From: a bacterium
Lineage (GTDB): Bacteria; Krumholzibacteriota; Krumholzibacteriia; LZORAL124-64-63
Reading direction: 5' to 3'
Length of the DNA: 64,000 nt
Assembly (NCBI GenBank): GCA_003353795.1
Contig: PIVY01000004.1
Coordinates: 1-64,000 of the forward strand
How positions within the stretch are numbered: position 1 is the stretch's first letter; the number at the start of each line of letters is the position of its first letter. Positions 19,767-59,714 of this stretch are shown piece by piece. The translations under genes and the position numbers were made by a program. The notes under the pieces were generated by a model. That model was not told the origin of the DNA. It did not search any database and saw only the letters and a program-made list of their open reading frames with translations.

Positions 19767-20342
19767 ATGCATCCCAAGCGATCGACCCGGAACTGGCTCG
19801 CCCTCGCCGCCCTCGCGGTGATCATCGCCGCCGTCCCCGCCCAGGCCGAAATCCTCAACGGCGACTTCGAGAATGGAGGCACCGACTGGGCCTACAACGG
19901 CCCGGCCACGTGGGGCAACGGCTTCCCGCCCGCCGGCGGCAACCCCGACGGCTATGCCGTCATCGCCTCGCCGCTGCTCGACTCCGGCGGCATCGGCTGC
20001 CTCACCCAGACTTTTCTGTGCGGCGAGCCCGGAGGCGCCACGGTCTGCTCGATCACCCTGGACTTCTGGCTGGCTCCCGACAATTCCGGCGACCCCACGT
20101 CGGGCGTCATCAAGGTGTTCATCGACGGGCAGGAACTGTTCAGCTTCGTCGGCGAGACCGACGGCTGGCAGACCGCCACCGTCACCGTCCCATGCGGTGT
20201 GCACGTCATCGACATCTGCCTCGAGGTTGCCGACGGGGACAACGGCTGGCGCGCCTGCTTCGACAACGTGGCATCCGTGTGCGAAGACACCGTGGCCGTG
20301 AACGAGAACACCTGGAGCAACCTCAAGGGTCTGTTCCGCTAG
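19767..20342 (+). CDS. Secreted protein with W-S-x-L-K-x-L-F-R C-terminal tail
   Basis: This 191-residue exported protein starts at ATG 19767, 7 bases after AAAGGAG. The signal peptide ends near VPAQA. The mature part begins ILNGDFENGGTDWAYNG, an N-G-x-F-E-x-G start typical of carbohydrate-binding-like jelly-roll domains (CBM4/9 or DUF642-like), and contains several cysteines. The very end is NENTWSNLKGLFR. The same tail pattern ends the proteins at 44797 and 48832, and a remnant lies at 44164. I know of no described domain for the tail; a sorting or anchoring role is inferred from its position after unrelated secreted domains. Ligand unknown. The gene is monocistronic with a strong terminator. 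Confidence 0.88.
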   Translation: MHPKRSTRNWLALAALAVIIAAVPAQAEILNGDFENGGTDWAYNGPATWGNGFPPAGGNPDGYAVIASPLLDSGGIGCLTQTFLCGEPGGATVCSITLDFWLAPDNSGDPTSGVIKVFIDGQELFSFVGETDGWQTATVTVPCGVHVIDICLEVADGDNGWRACFDNVASVCEDTVAVNENTWSNLKGLFR

Positions 20343-34655: not shown

Positions 34656-35174
34656 TCAGTCGAACAGCGCCTTCACCCCGCTCAGCGTCCTCGCCTCGGC
34701 CGCCACCGTACCCTGGGAGAAATCCGCCGACTGTTCGGTGACGAAGTACCAGATGCCGTCGAGGTAGGCATGGTTCGGATCGTCCGGATCCGCCGGCGAG
34801 TAGATATCGATGATGAACCAGGCGCCGTAGTAGCCGTTGGCGCCCCGAAAGAAAACCGTCGACCCCTCGACCGCTGAAATGGCCTCCGATTCGTACTGGA
34901 AGACCGACGCGTCCGACACCACGGTGGGATCGGCGAGCCCGGCGTACACGTAGACGTCGCAGTTGGAATGCGGGTAGTTCAATCCGTAGAACCAACCCTG
35001 GCTGTTCTCATTCCTCATGGACCAACGCTGCACCAGGTCGTGCTCGCCGTCGCCCCAGGTGAAGTTCACCATGCTCTCGGCGACATGGTCGATGGCGCCG
35101 GTGAGAACCTCGGCCTGGGCGGCGGTCGTCGAGGCCAGGAGCATCAGAACAACGATCGCGCGGTGGCCGACCAT
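34656..35174 (-). CDS. Secreted protein with divergent V-K-A-L-F tail
   Basis: The 172-residue exported protein starts at ATG 35174, with AAGGA 5 bases upstream. The signal peptide is MVGHRAIVVLMLLASTTAAQA. The mature part is aromatic-rich (NFTWGDGEHDLVQRW; NGYYGAWFIIDIYSPADPDD) and of no recognised family. It ends EARTLSGVKALFD. Compared with the tails at 20342, 45471 and 48832, the V-K-x-[LF]-F core is kept but the tryptophan is leucine and the final arginine is aspartate, so it is either a divergent member or a mutated copy. It is convergent with the PepSY gene and divergent from tetR. Confidence 0.82.
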   Translation of the reverse strand: MVGHRAIVVLMLLASTTAAQAEVLTGAIDHVAESMVNFTWGDGEHDLVQRWSMRNENSQGWFYGLNYPHSNCDVYVYAGLADPTVVSDASVFQYESEAISAVEGSTVFFRGANGYYGAWFIIDIYSPADPDDPNHAYLDGIWYFVTEQSADFSQGTVAAEARTLSGVKALFD

Positions 35175-35288
35175 GGCGTTCCTTCGGTTCGGGACGCATT
35201 CAGGGATCATCAGGCAACGGATTCGACCGTACCGCGGAAACCCCGCAATCCCAACCGTTCATTGCCATTACACCTCCGCCATGCTACA

Positions 35289-41835: not shown

Positions 41836-42821
41836 AGCTGTTCTGGCGGCAGGTGGACTATCCGTTACTGCGACCGCTCACGGTCGGCGGCAAGGTGCTC
41901 CACGAGCGGTCGGTGATCGAGTTGCGGCTGGAGTCGTTCCGGGGAACGTCCTACGGAGAAGCCTCGCCTCTGCCGGGACTTCACTCCGAGACGCTGGAGG
42001 AATTGCCGGCGATGCTGCCACAGGCGCTCGATCGCCTGAACCGGCCCCGGAACGTATTCGATCTGCGTGTCGAGGCGGTCGCCGACCACGACCCCTGGCG
42101 AGAGCTCCCCCCGAGCTTGCGTTTCGCTCTCGAGATAGCCGTGGTGCGCCTGTTTCAGCGCGGCGAACGTCCAACTTATCTGGTCGGCCTGCCGTTCAGC
42201 GTCGCGCCTCCGTCCTGCGGTCTCGTCGATCGGGATCTCGCTGATCTCGACCCTGGGCTCGCTGCTCATCGTTGCCTCAAGGTCAAGGTCGGGCGCCGCG
42301 CTATGCACACCGAGGTCGCCATCGTCCACGCGCTTCGACGCGTCCTGGGCGACCATGCAGAACTGCGTCTCGACGCCAACCGGGCCTTCTCTCTCGAGGA
42401 CGCGCTGGACTTCGCCCACGAGGTGGCATCCGCCCGTCCGGTCTGGATCGAGGAGCCGCTGAGGGATCCGTCGCAGTTGCCGCAGTTCACTGCCCGCACG
42501 GGGCTGCGCGTGGCCCTCGACGAGTCGCTGCACGAACCCGAGCACGCCGCGCTCGCCGCCGCCGACGGCGTGGCGGCCTGGGTGCTCAAACCGGCGTTGC
42601 TGGGATTGCTGGGGACCGTCGAGCTGTTCGGGCGGGCGCTGGTGGCGCCGAACCGGCCACAGTGCGTGGTCAGCTCCAGTTTCGAGGGGCGGCTCGGCCT
42701 GGAGACGCTGCGGTTCCTGGCCAACTGCGCGCCGGGATTGCCGGCCCCGGGATTGGGGACCGGCGAATGGCTCGGACCCGCCGATTTCGAACCCTGGATC
42801 GAGGTCCATGCCGACAACTGA
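41832..42821 (+). CDS. menC: o-Succinylbenzoate synthase
   Basis: This 329-residue enolase-superfamily enzyme dehydrates SHCHC. Visible catalytic residues are the KxK pair in CLKVKVGRR, metal ligands in [15 protein letters not shown] and ALDESLH, and the second lysine in [25 protein letters not shown] near residue 45 is the N-terminal capping region. It overlaps menB by 4 bases and menE by 14. Confidence 0.94.
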
Positions 42822-44106
42822 TCGACACTGGCTGACGCTGCTGGAGGAGCGGCCGGAGGCGCCGTTCTGGGACGGCGTTTCGCGGGGCGAATTGAACACC
42901 GCGGTGGTGAGTCGCGCGGCGGAGCTGCGGCGCGAAGGTTGGTCATCCGGCGACCGCCTCGCGTTGGCTCCCGATGCCGACGTGGCGACGGTGATCGCAG
43001 TGCTTGCCGCACTGCACGCCGACCTCTCGGTACTGCTATTGCCCCGACGCGAACCGCCGTCCGTACAGGATTCTCTCGTGGCGTGCGCCGGCGCGCGCCG
43101 AGCCGATGCGACGAGCGCCAAGACAAGCGACTCCGGCAACCGCCTACCCGGCACCATCTGGATCCGCAGCTCCGGCTCACTCGGCAACCCACGCTGGATC
43201 ATCCACACCCCCGCCACAATGCTGGCCGGCGCGGCGGTCGCAGCCCGCCACCTCGACTTCGGCCCCGGCGCCCGCTGGCGGGTGTCGCTGCCGCTGGACC
43301 ACGTGGGCGGGCTGTCACTCATCTTCCGGGCCATGGCCGGCGGCGGCGCGCTCACCACCCAGGATGACGCAACCCACGTGTCGCTCGTCGCCACGCAGTT
43401 GCGGCGGTTGCTCGCCGGTGGCGCCGACCTCGGCCGGCATCGTTGCGTGCTCCTGGGTGGCGGCCCCGCGCCCACCGCATTGCGCCGCGAAGCATTGTCC
43501 GCCGGCGTCCCGCTGGTCGTGTCCTACGGACTCAGCGAGACCGGCGCCGTGACGGCGGCCAGCGCCCTGGACGACCCGCCGGACGCGCTCTGCCGCGATC
43601 ACTTCGCCGGACGACCGCTCGTACCCGGTAGCATCGACGTGAATAAGGGCGGCATCGTTCGCGTGGGAGGACCAGCTCTTTGCGTGGCTACCGCCGGCGA
43701 CGACGGCAAACCGTCGCCCATGCGCCTGGAAGACGGCCGGTTACCCACGGGCGATCTGGGCCACTTCGACGGCAATGACCTCTTCGTCACCGGCCGCCAC
43801 GACAACGTCATCGTCTCGGGAGGCGAGAAGCTTCCGGCCGAGGAACTCGAGGCGGCGCTGCTCGCCCTCGACGGCGTGCTCGAAGCAGTGGTGGTGCCGG
43901 TACCCGACGATGAGTTCGGGCAGCGACCGGCTGCGTTCGTGAGCTGGCAGGCGGGGCGCGAGCGATCGCTGGACGCCCTGCGAGAAGCGCTCGCTGGCAC
44001 CATCGCCGAGTGGAAACGGCCGGTGGCGATCTGGCCGATGCCGGAATCGGACGGCTTCAAGCCCGATCGCGCCATTCTCCGACATCTGGCTCTCGAGCGC
44101 CGTTGA
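42808..44106 (+). CDS. menE: o-Succinylbenzoate-CoA ligase
   Basis: This 432-residue acyl-adenylate-forming enzyme activates o-succinylbenzoate with ATP and CoA. The phosphate-binding loop is the variant IRSSGSLGNPR. SYGLSETGAVT, PTGDLGHFDG and VTGRHDNVIVSGGEKL are the later A-motifs, and GFKPDRAIL supplies the C-terminal lysine. It is shorter than typical (about 450-490), from a compact N-terminus. It is the last gene of the operon and overlaps menC by 14 bases. After its TGA the same frame stays open into a decayed remnant (44107-44229). Confidence 0.92.
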   Translation: MPTTDRHWLTLLEERPEAPFWDGVSRGELNTAVVSRAAELRREGWSSGDRLALAPDADVATVIAVLAALHADLSVLLLPRREPPSVQDSLVACAGARRADATSAKTSDSGNRLPGTIWIRSSGSLGNPRWIIHTPATMLAGAAVAARHLDFGPGARWRVSLPLDHVGGLSLIFRAMAGGGALTTQDDATHVSLVATQLRRLLAGGADLGRHRCVLLGGGPAPTALRREALSAGVPLVVSYGLSETGAVTAASALDDPPDALCRDHFAGRPLVPGSIDVNKGGIVRVGGPALCVATAGDDGKPSPMRLEDGRLPTGDLGHFDGNDLFVTGRHDNVIVSGGEKLPAEELEAALLALDGVLEAVVVPVPDDEFGQRPAAFVSWQAGRERSLDALREALAGTIAEWKRPVAIWPMPESDGFKPDRAILRHLALERR

Positions 44107-44229
44107 ACCAGTGATTCCGTTTCTGTAGAATCAACAGGCGACGACGCCAACTGCCAGGACTCCGTGGTGACCGAATCGCAATCGTGGTCGGCGGTGAAGT
44201 CGATCTTCCGCCAGAAGGCGGAGGCTTAG
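44107..44229 (+). pseudogene. 3' remnant of a secreted W-S-x-V-K-tail protein gene
   Basis: Directly after the menE stop, one frame is open to TAG 44227-44229 and ends CQDSVVTESQSWSAVKSIFRQKAEA. This resembles the ends of the secreted proteins at 20342 (CEDTVAVNENTWSNLKGLFR) and 45471 (SWSSVKSFYR), including the upstream C-x-D-[ST]-V. There is no room for a signal peptide or domain, so it looks like the surviving 3' end of a deleted gene. An AGGA with GTG at 44164 could still allow a 21-residue peptide. Five extra residues (QKAEA) follow the motif. The stop overlaps the end of the convergent thioesterase gene. Confidence 0.55.
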
Positions 44230-44630
44230 CGCAACGCCGCGAGCCCCTGCCGCATTCCCTCGGTCAAGGGCACCGACTGGCCGTTCACACGGTCAATGGC
44301 CGCGTGCGTCACCTGCGCCCGGGCCAGTTCCTCGCCTTCCGGATCCAGGAACACGTACCCCAGCGTGAACGAGCTCTCGCCCTCACGCACCACCGAGATC
44401 GCGATCTCCACCTCGGTGCCCAGGGTCATGGGCCGGCGATAATCGGCCTCGCAGCGCACGATGGGCGCGATGGGCTCGTCCGACTCGAGGGCGCCGGCCA
44501 GTGGCTCGCCCAGCTCGTCGAGCATGACCTCGTAGGCCTCGTGGGTCATCTCCAGCAGGCGGGGATAGAAGATCACGCCGGCGGCGTCGGTGTGGTGGAG
44601 GCGGACGGTCTGGCGGTGGGTCCAGGGCAC
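44226..44630 (-). CDS. Hotdog-fold acyl-CoA thioesterase, possible DHNA-CoA hydrolase
   Basis: This 134-residue 4HBT thioesterase starts at GTG 44630 with GAGG about 7 bases upstream. The active-site region is HHTDAAGVIFYPRLLEMTHEAYE, with the acidic residue (Asp in TDAAG, Glu in LLEMTHEAY) typical of 4-hydroxybenzoyl-CoA and DHNA-CoA thioesterases. It lies directly downstream of, and convergent to, the men operon. Menaquinone synthesis needs a DHNA-CoA hydrolase (MenI) and none is inside the operon, so this gene is the obvious candidate. Fold certain; substrate inferred. Confidence 0.85.
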   Translation of the reverse strand: MPWTHRQTVRLHHTDAAGVIFYPRLLEMTHEAYEVMLDELGEPLAGALESDEPIAPIVRCEADYRRPMTLGTEVEIAISVVREGESSFTLGYVFLDPEGEELARAQVTHAAIDRVNGQSVPLTEGMRQGLAALR

Positions 44631-44796: not shown

Positions 44797-45471
44797 ATGC
44801 ATCGCATTGCCATCGTATCACTGCTCGTTCTACTCATGGCCTCCAGCGCCCTGGCCGCTCCGACTTGGGGCGTATCTTTCAGCCGAATCTGCGAAGACGC
44901 CGTGACCCAGTTGCGGGTCATCGTCTGGAACGAAGATCCTGACCATCCGAATCTCCCGGAAGAATTCACGATCATCCGCACCACCACCGCCCCGGGCCTC
45001 GCCGATCCGCTGGTCCTGACCACGGACCCCATCCCCTTGCCCCCGTACGGCGAGCAGACTGTTGTCTTGCTGCCCGATCCGGGCGTCCCCGCCGAGGCCA
45101 TCGGCTACTACGAATGCTGGGCGACCTTCGGCGACGGCAGCGAAGTATTGACCGACGAAGGGGCCCTCAGTTGCGTCACCGATCCGTATCTCATGCGCGC
45201 CCTGCTGATCACCGATGACGTCGCCGAGCCGTGCGAGGGCATCGGCCTGCTCGAGTGCACCAGCGTGCTGCTCTCGGATCTGGACATGCTCGATTATGTG
45301 GGCACCGGTGAACTGGTCGACATCTACGGCTGGCCCGTGTGGCTGAACGACGTGAACTCGTGCGGAATCAACGTGACCCGCATCGAGCCTCTCGACGACG
45401 GCGCCACCTGCAAAGGCGTCGTGGCGTTGCAGCCGAAGTCGTGGTCGTCGGTGAAGTCTTTCTACCGGTAG
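44797..45471 (+). CDS. Secreted protein with W-S-S-V-K-S-F-Y-R tail
   Basis: The 224-residue exported protein starts at ATG 44797, 6 bases after GGGGGAG. The signal peptide is MHRIAIVSLLVLLMASSALA. The mature part is cysteine-containing (ICEDAVTQL; YYECWATF; LLECTSVLL) and beta-rich, with no recognised family. It ends QPKSWSSVKSFYR, the same tail type as the proteins at 19767 and 48832. AT-rich DNA at 44730-44752 probably contains the promoter. The terminus overlaps nothing; a terminator follows at 45543. Confidence 0.87.
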   Translation: MHRIAIVSLLVLLMASSALAAPTWGVSFSRICEDAVTQLRVIVWNEDPDHPNLPEEFTIIRTTTAPGLADPLVLTTDPIPLPPYGEQTVVLLPDPGVPAEAIGYYECWATFGDGSEVLTDEGALSCVTDPYLMRALLITDDVAEPCEGIGLLECTSVLLSDLDMLDYVGTGELVDIYGWPVWLNDVNSCGINVTRIEPLDDGATCKGVVALQPKSWSSVKSFYR

Positions 45472-48831: not shown

Positions 48832-49425
48832 CTAGCGGTACAGGCCCTTCAGCTCGGTCCAGCTCTTGCTCTCGGTGCCGACGCCACCGCAGAACACCAC
48901 GTTGTCGCTGGTGTTGATGGTGAAGTCGCCCATGTCGCCGGCGGAGAAGGTGGTGAGCACGAGCCAGTAGTCCACGCCGGGGCTCAGCATCAGGCCGTCC
49001 GAGATGGTGAACGCGCTCATGAGGCCGTCGCCGTCATCGTCGTCCGAGAACTTGGCGTTGGCGGTGGCGTCACTGGGATCGAACGGATCGCAGTACAGCT
49101 CCATGTGCGTGTCGCCGATGGTGGTGGCGGCGGCATCCACGATGACCTCGATGGGCATGTCGTCGGTCGAGGTGATGCAGAACACGTCGTAGTACTGGCC
49201 CGCGCTGGAGAGGGTCAACGGGAAGTCGCAGGCGGCACTCGGGGGGTCGACGTTGTTGAACGCGCGGTTCCAGGTGGGCGAGTTCTGATCGAGGGTGCCG
49301 CTGATCACCATCAGCGATGGGTTATTGTAGGTGGCGTCCTTGGTATCGGGGCGCTTCATCTCGGCGGAAGCGGCGGTTGCCAACACGAGGGCGAGAACGA
49401 GGGTCAAAAACAGTAGCTTTTTCAT
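48832..49425 (-). CDS. Secreted protein with W-T-E-L-K-G-L-Y-R tail
   Basis: The 197-residue exported protein starts at ATG 49425, 7 bases after GGAGG. The signal peptide is MKKLLFLTLVLALVLATAASA. The mature part looks like a small beta-sandwich of the bacterial pre-peptidase C-terminal type (SAGQYYDVFCITS; GVDYWLVLTTFSAGDMGDFTI) and has an acidic loop (SDDDDGDG) that could bind calcium. It ends GTESKSWTELKGLYR, the same tail as two other secreted proteins in this window. It is monocistronic with two tandem terminators. Function unknown. Confidence 0.88.
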   Translation of the reverse strand: MKKLLFLTLVLALVLATAASAEMKRPDTKDATYNNPSLMVISGTLDQNSPTWNRAFNNVDPPSAACDFPLTLSSAGQYYDVFCITSTDDMPIEVIVDAAATTIGDTHMELYCDPFDPSDATANAKFSDDDDGDGLMSAFTISDGLMLSPGVDYWLVLTTFSAGDMGDFTINTSDNVVFCGGVGTESKSWTELKGLYR

Positions 49426-50453: not shown

Positions 50454-52634
50454 CTATCGCGCCAGCGCCAGGCGGGCGGTCCTCGCGAATCCGTCGCCGA
50501 CCAGCCTGGCCAGATAGACGCCCGAAGGCGCCGCACGGCCGTCCTGACCACGGCCATTCCAGGTGACCTGGTGCCGTGCGGCCCCGAGTTCGCCGCGAAA
50601 TACCTCCGCCACCCGACGGCCGGCCACATCGTAGATCGTGATCGTGACCGGACCGCCTCGCGCGAGCTCGAACGACAGCGTGACCGCTGGATTGAACGGA
50701 TTGGGTCGAGCCACGAGGGCCGGCGGGGCGGGATCGGCGGCGGGGTCGTCCGGAACCGCCAGCACCGTGTCGCAGTGCCGCGGCAGGAGCGCGAGCCCCA
50801 CATCGGTGGCCGCGGCATGCACCGCATGGTCGCTCAGGGCGAGCACGAAGGCCGAGTCGGGCAGGTAGGTGCCGCCGATCATCGTGGGCGCGGTCGGGTC
50901 GGTAACGTCGACAACGTGGACGAAACCCACGAAGGTGGTGACATAGGCCACCGAGCCGTCGACCACCACCTCGTGCGGTTCGCCGGGGATGGGCAACGAT
51001 CCGATCTGCTGCATGGCAGCCGGGTCCGACGCATCGAAGACCAGTAGCTCTCCCGCCGACCCCTGATCCAGTGCCACGATCACCTTGTCGCTGCCGACCG
51101 CCAGCCCGTTGACCGCCTCCCCCGGCAACATGATCTCGTCCGCGAGCACGGGCAGCAGCGGGTCGGAGAGGTCGAAGACCTGCACGACCGCGTCGCCGAA
51201 CGCCCCGGTGCCCACCAGCAGGTGATCGCCCACCTGCGCGAGTTGCAGGGCGAAAGGACGCGACGGGACCGTGGCCTCGAGGTCGGGGCGAGTGGGGTCG
51301 CCGATGTCCACGACGAATAGGCCGCCTTGGAAGAAGTCGGCCAGGTAGCAGAGCGAACCGCGCACGGTCATCTGGCTCACGAAACCGTCGAGTTCCAGGA
51401 TCGCGGCCTCCACCGGAGCCGCGGGATCGCGGATGTCGACGATCACCAGGCGGCCGCCGCCGGCGCCGGCGGGAGTGATCAGCACCAGGTCGTCGGCGAT
51501 GACCAGACGGCTGGTGGAACCACCGAAATCGAAGGTGCCGAGGAGGACCGGCGCCGCGGGATCGGAGTGGTCGAAGAGGCTGAGATTCTCGGCGCCGATC
51601 GCCGTGAGCGAACCGTGGGCATCCACCCCGAACGCTACGCCCGGCACGCTCGTGACGCTGAGTACGGGCGGTGAGCCCGGCGGGTCGGCGTCGATGACGT
51701 CCAGTCCGCCGTCGGCCGTGGGCACCAGGGCCAGGTCGCCGGCCACGGTCACCGAGATGGGGCCGTCGCTGGTGCCGAGGTTGCCCACCACGCGCGGCTG
51801 ATACGGCAGCGAAACATCCACCACGCAGAGACCGTCGCAGGCGATGAACGCCAGGTCGTCCACGCGCTGGATGTGGCGCGCCGGCCCCGGCAAGGGCAGG
51901 AGCGTGACCGCCGTCGGCGCCGCCGGATCGGTCACGTCGAAGACCTCGAGACCGGCGTCCCAGGAGGTCACCAGGGCGGTGGAGCCGTCGAGATCCACCC
52001 CGTACGCCTGGCCGATCACGTCGGTGCCGCCCAGAACCAGCGGCTGCTGCGGGTTGGCGATGTCGATCATGACCAGACCGGTCTCGTCGGCAACGGCCGC
52101 CAGGTCACCGACCGCATCGACGCCTCGCGCCACCCCCGGCGTATCGGCGACTCCGATGACGAACGGGTGCTCCGGATCGCCGACGTCCAGGATCAGCAAC
52201 CCGGCGTGGCCCGTGGCCATGAGCAGGTGAGGCGGCCTGAGCAGGAGCGCGTGTCCGTTGCCCGGCAGCGCCAGCTCGGCCACGTGGCGGGGTCGATCGG
52301 GAAACGCCACGTCGACCACGTGCAACTCGCCGGTGTTGTTGACGATGAAGGCATGATCGTCGTGGAGCACCAGCCAGAGGGCGATGCCGACGGTGTCGAG
52401 GCTGGCCACGGGTACAGGATCGCGGGGATTGGAAAGGTCGAGGATGGTGAAGCCGGCGTCGCCGTCGGCAAGGTAGGCGAGGTCACCTCTTAGCACGACG
52501 GCGCGGGCGCTTCCCTCGGTGGGGGCGTTGCCGATGAGGCGAAGGAAGTCGCCATAGTCGACGCAGATCTCGGCCGCCGGCCCGGCGCCCGCAATGGACA
52601 CCAGCGCGAGACATAGGGCGAGGGTACGAGGCAT
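50454..52634 (-). CDS. Secreted LVIVD-repeat protein with FlgD-like C-terminal domain
   Basis: This 726-residue exported protein starts at ATG 52634, 6-7 bases after GGGAGG. The signal peptide is MPRTLALCLALVSIAGAGPAA. About a dozen repeats of the type V-x-D-[IV]-x-[DN]-P-x-x-P (for example LHVVDVAFPDRP, VHVVDVTDPTAP) predict a beta-propeller of the LVIVD family. The last 85 residues are a FlgD/Por-type immunoglobulin-like tail: VARPNPFNPAVTLSFELARG, YDVAGRRVA, SGVYLARL. In FCB bacteria this tail type accompanies secretion or surface attachment. Function of the propeller unknown. Genes on both sides are transcribed away or apart. Confidence 0.9.
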   Translation of the reverse strand: MPRTLALCLALVSIAGAGPAAEICVDYGDFLRLIGNAPTEGSARAVVLRGDLAYLADGDAGFTILDLSNPRDPVPVASLDTVGIALWLVLHDDHAFIVNNTGELHVVDVAFPDRPRHVAELALPGNGHALLLRPPHLLMATGHAGLLILDVGDPEHPFVIGVADTPGVARGVDAVGDLAAVADETGLVMIDIANPQQPLVLGGTDVIGQAYGVDLDGSTALVTSWDAGLEVFDVTDPAAPTAVTLLPLPGPARHIQRVDDLAFIACDGLCVVDVSLPYQPRVVGNLGTSDGPISVTVAGDLALVPTADGGLDVIDADPPGSPPVLSVTSVPGVAFGVDAHGSLTAIGAENLSLFDHSDPAAPVLLGTFDFGGSTSRLVIADDLVLITPAGAGGGRLVIVDIRDPAAPVEAAILELDGFVSQMTVRGSLCYLADFFQGGLFVVDIGDPTRPDLEATVPSRPFALQLAQVGDHLLVGTGAFGDAVVQVFDLSDPLLPVLADEIMLPGEAVNGLAVGSDKVIVALDQGSAGELLVFDASDPAAMQQIGSLPIPGEPHEVVVDGSVAYVTTFVGFVHVVDVTDPTAPTMIGGTYLPDSAFVLALSDHAVHAAATDVGLALLPRHCDTVLAVPDDPAADPAPPALVARPNPFNPAVTLSFELARGGPVTITIYDVAGRRVAEVFRGELGAARHQVTWNGRGQDGRAAPSGVYLARLVGDGFARTARLALAR

Positions 52635-52804
52635 GTGGGGCCTCCCCGGTGGCGGCGATGAGTGTCCAGTCAAGGAAGGCATGAACACGTCTTGTCGCGA
52701 CCGGAGAGGCGGCCGCGCCGGAACCGCCTACCGATCCATGGGACGGCACCCTATCTTGGCTGAACTGTCCGGACCGCACCCATTGCCGCCCCGAGGAAGA
52801 CACC

Positions 52805-57324: not shown

Positions 57325-59631
57325 TCACCGGACGAGCGTCAGGCTGACGCTCGCCGATCCCTGCCCCGTCACCAGCCGCGCCAGGTAGACACCCGACCCC
57401 ACCGACCGCCCCTGGTCGTCTCGCCCTTCCCAGCGGCGCTCGTGCCGCCCCGGATCCAGGACGCCGTCGACCAGCGTCGCCACGCGCCTTCCGCGCACGT
57501 CGAACACGGCGAGATTCACCGGACCGGCCCCGGGCACCGAAAACGCCACCGTGGTCGCCGGGTTGAATGGATTGGGATACGCGTGATGGACCGTCGCCAC
57601 CGCCGGCGGCAGAACCGGCGCGCCGATGGTGCTGTCGTTGGGCGCGCCCGGCGTGGGCGTGGTGAAGAGGATCCATGATTCGGGATCGTCGGGATCGCGG
57701 CCCTCGCTCACATCGGCGATCTGGGGACCGAACACGTGGGCGTCGAGGAACACGTTGCCCGAGGCCAGCGGTGCGTAGAGGCCGATCTCCTCGCCGGCCG
57801 CACTCAGCTTGAAGGTGGTGTGCAGCGGACCCTCGGCAGGATCGCCGTCACACCACACCACCACGTGCTCGTCCGGGCGCAGCATCACGGCTGGGAACTC
57901 CCACTTGGTGGGGTCGGATAGATCGTCGGTGAGGAAGAGACCGGTGAGATCGCGCGGCTCGGCGCCGACGTTGGCGATCTCCACCCAGTCGGCGAAATCG
58001 CCGGCCTCGTCCGCGTTGACGGTCTGGTTGCTGGCGAGGAACTCGTTGATCACCAGACCGTCGTGGGCGCCGGGCCAGGAAGGCGCGGGCCATTCGCTGA
58101 AGAATGTGTCGGCCTGGGCCAGGAAGATCGGGCGGCGGTCAGTGAGCCATTGCGCGGTGCGGTCGAGGTTGTAGGCGTACCAGTCGGTCTGGAAACCCTC
58201 CCAGCGATCGGCCTGACCGGGGACCTCGGGCCACTGGCCGGCGGCGAGTTGGTCGAGGCGGGCGGTGAGGCTCGCAGTGGTCATGACGCCGCCCAGGAGG
58301 TGCTCGAGGCGGGAGCGGAAGAGGCGGCGGAAGTCGGCGTTGCCCAGCAGGGTGCGGAACATGGTGAGCCATTCCTGCTGGGTGGGATCCCACGATCGGT
58401 GGTCGCCGGGTGCGCGGTACAGGTTCCATTCGCTGGCGTTCCGGGCGGTGAAGAAGCGGAACATGTTGGTGGCCTCGTCGCCGCCGTCGAACGCCAGCTC
58501 CTCGTCCCACATGATGAAGCGCCAGGGGTGATCGCCGGGCTGGAACATGGCCAGGTTCCAGGCGAAGCCGTTGTCGCCCGACACGGCGAACAGGTTGAGG
58601 ATCTGCCAGTCGATGTAGCTGGCCAGGTCCATGGTGGCGCGGACCTGGTCGAACCAGGCGTCGCTACTCGGGTCGGGCACGGATTCGAACGAGCCGAGGA
58701 ACGTCCACCAGGCCGCGGCATCGCCCGCCACGGTCTCACCGTCCTTGAGGAGGTTGTAGCCGGCAGCCTCCAGATCCCAGGTGGTCTCGATGAATTCCGT
58801 GTCGAGGCGCTCGCGCAGGCTGTAGGCGCCCCAGTATTCCCGATTCAGGTAGAGAGCCGCGAACTGGTAGCGGCTGGCCAGGTGGCCGAGGTCGGCGAAG
58901 AGGGTCTCGAGTAGGTTGGTGTTGATCGCGGCCGAGTCGTAGCGGTTGCCGCGCACGATGAGTCGGCGGAACGACTCGGGGCCGTCGGGGAAGAACGGAT
59001 GCTCCACGGTATCGACGGCGCCGTGGTCGTCGAAGTAGAAGCGCAGACCTTTCTGATGGTACCAGCGACCGTAACCGCCGTTGATCCGCAGGCCGATCTC
59101 CTCGTCCAGCACCTTGCCAAGGCCCGGCTCGTAGTACTCGAAGCGGGCGAGACGTTCCCAGGCAGCGCCGGTCTGCAGACAGTTGTCGTGGTCGCCCAGC
59201 ACGTAGATGCCGGTCGCGGGGTGCCAGAGATCGGTGGAGTCGACCACCACGTGGATCACCGGAAGCGCGTGGCCGAGGGGATCGAAGGGGCGCGGCGATC
59301 CGGGGGCGACGGTGACCTCGGTGAGGCCGCCGAGGTCGTCTCGCAGGGTGACGGTGCGCGGGCCGTTCCAGTTCCAGGGGAAGCGCGTGACGAAGGAGCG
59401 GTCGTCGAGGCGCTCGAAGTCGGGATCGGGAACCGCGAGGTCCACCGGGCGATCGGCGGCCACCACCACGGGCATGGCGGCCTCGAGGGCCGGATCGATG
59501 GGATAGATCGGATCGGGGATCAGGCGCCATCCGGGCAGCAACTCCACCGTGACCTGGGCCAGTGCCGGCCCGGCGATGGCAAGCAGGGCAGTCAGCGCGA
59601 GGACGGACTGCAGGATGAGGCGAGCGGTCAT
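57325..59631 (-). CDS. Secreted CotH-family protein with lamin-tail and FlgD-like domains
   Basis: The 768-residue exported protein starts at ATG 59631 with signal peptide MTARLILQSVLALTALLAIAGPALA. A CotH kinase-like domain spans about residues 120-490: GLRINGGYGRWYHQKGLRFYF, RLIVRGNRYDSAAINTNLLETLF, YWGAYSLRERLD, and the metal-binding FIMWDEEL. A lamin-tail (LTD) beta domain follows (LVINEFLASNQTVNADEAGDFADWVEIAN; residues about 525-630). The C-terminal FlgD-like tail has YPNPFNPATTVAFSVPG and GVYLARL. CotH enzymes phosphorylate secreted proteins in spores. Here the activity is unproven. A shorter paralog is divergently transcribed at 59902. Confidence 0.9.
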   Translation of the reverse strand: MTARLILQSVLALTALLAIAGPALAQVTVELLPGWRLIPDPIYPIDPALEAAMPVVVAADRPVDLAVPDPDFERLDDRSFVTRFPWNWNGPRTVTLRDDLGGLTEVTVAPGSPRPFDPLGHALPVIHVVVDSTDLWHPATGIYVLGDHDNCLQTGAAWERLARFEYYEPGLGKVLDEEIGLRINGGYGRWYHQKGLRFYFDDHGAVDTVEHPFFPDGPESFRRLIVRGNRYDSAAINTNLLETLFADLGHLASRYQFAALYLNREYWGAYSLRERLDTEFIETTWDLEAAGYNLLKDGETVAGDAAAWWTFLGSFESVPDPSSDAWFDQVRATMDLASYIDWQILNLFAVSGDNGFAWNLAMFQPGDHPWRFIMWDEELAFDGGDEATNMFRFFTARNASEWNLYRAPGDHRSWDPTQQEWLTMFRTLLGNADFRRLFRSRLEHLLGGVMTTASLTARLDQLAAGQWPEVPGQADRWEGFQTDWYAYNLDRTAQWLTDRRPIFLAQADTFFSEWPAPSWPGAHDGLVINEFLASNQTVNADEAGDFADWVEIANVGAEPRDLTGLFLTDDLSDPTKWEFPAVMLRPDEHVVVWCDGDPAEGPLHTTFKLSAAGEEIGLYAPLASGNVFLDAHVFGPQIADVSEGRDPDDPESWILFTTPTPGAPNDSTIGAPVLPPAVATVHHAYPNPFNPATTVAFSVPGAGPVNLAVFDVRGRRVATLVDGVLDPGRHERRWEGRDDQGRSVGSGVYLARLVTGQGSASVSLTLVR

Positions 59632-59714
59632 GGCGGCCTGTCTGATAGATCTGGGCTAGACGCGTTTTCCACCCCCATGATCGCAGGTTTCGGGGTTGCC
59701 GCACAACCCCAGTG

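Follow-up and report, generated by a model that had tools for sequence, protein, structure and literature searches.

Introduction

The closest described systems to the DNA considered here are of two kinds, the C-terminal sorting domains of exported proteins (T9SS type A, TIGR04183; PEP-CTERM; GlyGly-CTERM; LPXTG) and the pseudogene remnants of bacteria, among them the 3'-end relics that follow deletion or truncation by IS elements. As a functional analogy only, a short C-terminal tail in Krumholzibacteriota may be likened to the former, in that many exported proteins within one lineage share it without being related. Unlike those domains, it is only about 16–20 residues long, with no transmembrane stretch and no basic end, and it also differs from the T9SS domain, which is a 70-residue Ig-like unit found on other proteins of the window (the whole stretch of 64,000 nucleotides that was analysed). 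Searched against the four tail proteins of the window, TIGR04183 gave no match at E ≤ 1. Pfam held no model matching the tail end of three tail proteins and NCBIfam none matching that of four, a literature search for sorting tails in Krumholzibacteriota found none, and the tail family is apparently undescribed so far.

T9SS type A-like C-terminal domains, scoring just above the TIGR04183 cut-off, were seen on two reverse-strand genes of the window (57325–59655 and 50454–52727), and two types of C-terminal end therefore coexist in this genome.

One copy of the tail lies outside any gene, between menE and a thioesterase gene. We report that this segment, at 44137–44211, is probably a relic of a gene whose exported product bore the tail; only the 3' end is present, and it would have reached the menE/thioesterase junction in this lineage only.

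Results

Tails in the genome were counted by searches and in fetched stretches of DNA. A profile was built from 18 aligned, intact C-terminal tails of the same genome, leaving out the segment itself; at E ≤ 10 it gave 87 matches in the genome, and some 80 of these terminate ORFs of 140–700 codons. The consensus, VAxExxSWSxVKxLYR, becomes V(A/G)(T/V)E-x-x-(S/T)-(W/L)-(S/T)-x-V-K-(A/S/G)-L-(F/Y)-(R/D/E) across 83 tails, and the family can be written as VAxExx[ST][WL][ST]x[VL]K[AGS]L[FY][RDE] followed by a stop. Leucine replaces the tryptophan in 24 of the 83 tails, valine occupies position −7 in 63, and 73 stop exactly at the last residue of the core, the remaining ones extending it by 1–6 residues. 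A signal-like N-terminus was recognised by a simple rule in 71 of 76 complete tail ORFs, and most of the other five have one by eye. Across the phylum, 30 of 38 Krumholzibacteriota genomes sampled contain the tail (E ≤ 1e-4). We infer that it acts as a sorting or docking signal of exported proteins.

Tandem arrays of paralogous tail proteins were also observed (the DGSDVYEYDY family), with three copies at G000:C180:20000-28000 and several at G000:C505:77448-91114.

The window holds four clear tails, three of them at gene ends (20342, 45471 and 48832). Profile searches placed the first at 20268–20342 on the forward strand, where an exported protein ends in VCEDTVAVNENTWSNLKGLFR and a stop, and the last at 48832–48906 on the reverse strand (VGTESKSWTELKGLYR, stop). 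A fifth, with L for W, was found in the same way at 34662–34715 on the reverse strand (VAAEARTLSGVKALFD, stop), terminating the reverse-strand ORF 34656–35258 with TLSGVKALFD and a stop.

The gene upstream of the gene-less tail, menE (o-succinylbenzoate-CoA ligase; 42808–44106, forward strand), matches NCBIfam PRK09029.1 (5e-57) and TIGR01923 menE (5.6e-56), both below the curated cut-offs, as well as Pfam AMP-binding, and ends in a TGA at 44104–44106. Directly past this stop and in frame with menE, the 40-codon frame 44107–44229 translates to TSDSVSVESTGDDANCQDSVVTESQSWSAVKSIFRQKAEA and a stop, with no gene body and no signal peptide. A sequence-only reading had proposed that this frame ends in the tail motif, and the profile of 18 other tails bears this out, with E = 2.5e-6 (30.9 bits) in a six-frame search of the genome and E = 6.8e-9 when the search is confined to the window. 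The best match of a reversed decoy profile in the window reached only E = 0.35, and in foreign DNA (484 kb, other phyla) the tail profile found nothing at E ≤ 1. Likewise, a degenerate DNA pattern occurs at 20 places in the genome, 18 ending in a stop and two without one (the segment and C328:13811), and the same pattern reversed gave none with a stop and one without. The spacing C-x-D-[ST]-V was also correctly noted as equal to that of the protein ending at 20342, but since only 6 of the 83 tails have Cys at that position, it is not a defining feature of the tail. The fifth tail of the window went unmentioned in that reading of the segment.

Third-position GC delimits the piece closely. It is found in 2 of 10 codons in 44107–44136 versus 24 of 26 in 44137–44214, the mean for intact tails being 0.885 ± 0.065, and given this jump at 44137 only about 75 nt (about 44137–44211, forward strand, GDDANCQDSVVTESQSWSAVKSIFR) are tail-derived. 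The left border of this DNA is sharp, and the best local DNA alignment with the neighbouring tail gene spans 44138 to 44210, within which the segment is matched to the tail at 45394–45468. The 30 nt before it (44107–44136, forward strand) form a linker lacking tail homology, and none of the tail proteins matched its ten residues significantly. Of the 44107–44229 described as a decayed gene end, only about 44137–44211 thus derives from a tail, and the ten codons that precede it are not coding-like. When 44107–44184, the part before the W core, was compared with tail genes, the neighbour gave p = 0.014 uncorrected, and other tails scored at least as well; homology of this part was not upheld. 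Resemblance by chance would draw on nothing beyond the shortness of the motif; it is refuted by the genome-wide E value, the empty decoys and coding-like third positions confined to the tail, and its probability is practically nil.

Past the tail, a run-off at 44212–44225 (forward strand) was recognised by comparison with the stop codons of other tails. Its first codon, CAG, occupies the position of the stop TAG in the tail of the gene at 44797, and the frame carries five extra residues, QKAEA, beyond the tail core; having no stop of its own, it terminates at a TAG (44227–44229) overlapping the thioesterase stop. All tail residues in 44137–44211 are intact, and decay is thus not visible within the segment, which may be recent or constrained; this counts against the relic reading. 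A search for a transposon footprint at the segment yielded solely a 5-bp direct repeat, AGGCG, at chance level, RNA folding there was not notable (z −1.66), and a search of plasmid DNA gave no match.

The placement of the tail allows two readings in which it would be translated. In the first, the TGA of menE is read through and a minority of MenE molecules acquire the tail, which does share its frame with menE, and no stop intervenes. Such agreement of frame has one chance in three, however, and MenE is cytosolic, whereas 71/76 tail proteins have signal-like N-termini; moreover, the first ten codons of the extension are not coding-like (GC3 2/10), and the MenE of a congener has no tail past its stop. 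We consider read-through extremely unlikely. In the second, a short leaderless peptide begins at the GTG at 44164 or 44167 (21 or 20 residues) and is active, for instance by competing for the receptor of the tail. The conserved tail residues, all intact, and an AGGA lying 4 nt upstream of GTG 44164 are consistent with this. Against it, the peptide would lack a signal peptide, though carriers of the tail are exported, it would end in the additional QKAEA, relatives have no counterpart at the junction, and other gene-less tails differ in setting and length, all of which makes such a peptide very unlikely. With no signal peptide, proper start or stop of its own, the relic would not be expected to give a functional protein.

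The other flank of the junction is a convergent gene for a hot-dog (4HBT_2) thioesterase at 44226–44630 on the reverse strand (Pfam PF13279, 8e-14). A convergent menE and hot-dog thioesterase are tightly packed in many phyla, which suggests that the latter is the DHNA-CoA thioesterase of the menaquinone pathway; a MenI-like role for 44226–44630 is thus suggested by its neighbourhood. We compared the gap between the two genes in 18 loci of relatives having the convergent pair, G001 and G021 each being counted once. Sixteen of these have a gap of −27 to +86 bp; in the other two, both from other phyla, 1.3–1.5 kb separates the genes. The closest named relative, the congener Candidatus Krumholzibacteriota RA.bin123 (G001), has a gap of 54 bp and no tail after the MenE stop. 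In the window the gap is 119 bp, or 44 bp when the tail piece is subtracted. Of two further congeners, G003 has another gene after menE and G002 gave no close menE match.

The short gaps in 16 of 18 loci, together with the similarity of 44 bp to the 54 bp of G001, indicate that the tail was gained in this lineage. The check that an intact gene might be found in the menE–thioesterase interval of relatives accordingly came out negative, and the idea of an ancestral gene lost from between the two is not supported, the gap being too short for a gene in those 16 loci. It counts against the relic reading that the nearest menE is only 61% identical (G001; that of G003, 50%) and the intergenic DNA unalignable, so that the same junction free of the piece is not visible in a close genome.

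A likely source stands 1.2 kb away. The gene at 44797–45471 (forward strand) encodes an exported protein that is specific to this lineage and whose tail, at 45394–45468, is intact; the gene has one paralogue in the genome (C108) and no homologue in the congeners G001–G003. Among 82 other tails, its DNA is the nearest to the segment, with 51 of 72 nt identical, against 43.8 expected when the relic peptide is recoded with the codons of the genome (P = 0.007), and the next-best partners are clearly lower. The likeness to this gene that had been remarked upon is therefore real. It is nevertheless one marginal test, the pair ranking 37 of 3321 for excess identity. Local duplication from the neighbour would accordingly be credited with moderate support, short of proof.

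Over all 3321 pairs the excess identity is near the null (mean z 0.23, sd 1.08), so that, as a rule, the tails have not been copied from one another recently at the DNA level, and general copying of this kind was rejected. A link between the segment (C331) and the gene-less tail on C328 was also considered; a 23-bp near-identity (96%) joins them, yet over the tail only 37 of 63 nt agree, which is not exceptional.

Gene-less or broken tails are not confined to this locus. In the same genome, a tail at C328:13778 has no gene body upstream, a tandem copy at C140:4358 is a gene broken by a frameshift, and single copies decay inside tandem groups of paralogous tail genes on C140, C180 and C505. At G000:C548:13344-13385 a stop stands directly before an otherwise intact tail (DYVIYTYDGG, stop, IAVENHSWTDVKNLFD, stop), which may be a pseudogene, a sequencing error or a read-through site.

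At least four other genomes have gene-less tails as well. Tails without a gene lie at G001:C1:1120093 and G036:C26:72614, another at G007:C61:35925 lies within an 81-residue remnant, and that at G035:C136:549 follows the stop of an alpha/beta-hydrolase (named from its translation). At G001:C2:157 (within G001:C2:1-700) a tail gene is apparently cut close to the start of an IS3-type transposase (also named from its translation), which shows plainly how tails come to stand without genes. Several further short tail frames are mere contig ends. Gene-less cases make up a few per cent of tails, a rate that ordinary pseudogene formation would give.

Discussion

The most likely route to the relic would be a duplication in which the neighbouring tail gene (44797–45471), or a close paralogue, contributed its 3' end to the junction. 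The copy could have been short from the outset, or longer at first and then reduced by deletion to the tail. Of the two events envisaged by the sequence-only reading, a tail gene lost here or a segment duplicated and moved, the gene-less segment and its nearest DNA in the neighbour speak for the second, and the loss of an old gene is the part that is not supported.

A relic could also have formed by another route, in which a complete tail gene was inserted in this lineage and then deleted save for its last 25 codons, the likeness to the neighbour reflecting paralogy only. Tail genes do stand in tandem groups with some copies broken, and longer remnants are known (the 81 residues in G007:C61 and the IS-adjacent truncated gene in G001:C2). 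On the other side, the upstream DNA holds nothing coding-like, and the deletion would need neat trimming on both sides, because the leftover gap of 44 bp is close to the 54 bp of the tail-less congener. We regard this route as possible but doubtful.

It is conceivable, though unlikely, that tail DNA spreads as a small module, its segments being copied into intergenic sites and later joining new reading frames. If so, such spread would explain the presence of the same tail on many unrelated exported proteins, and the relic would be a module that has landed and is still unjoined. Should tail segments move on their own, gene-less tails would be the places to see the movement.

The relic itself is ordinary and the tail family more interesting. 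The relic helps to mark out the tail as a separate unit whose border in the DNA is sharp. It also draws attention to an apparently undescribed C-terminal tail that some 80 exported proteins carry in this genome and that recurs across Krumholzibacteriota.

The relic resembles the pseudogene remnants of bacteria in keeping the 3' end of its family in an intergenic position with the gene body missing, and in having sister cases in related genomes, one of them IS-adjacent and one a larger remnant. It is unlike them in being only about 75 nt long, in showing no decay within the tail, and in lying at a junction where relatives otherwise leave little room between the genes.
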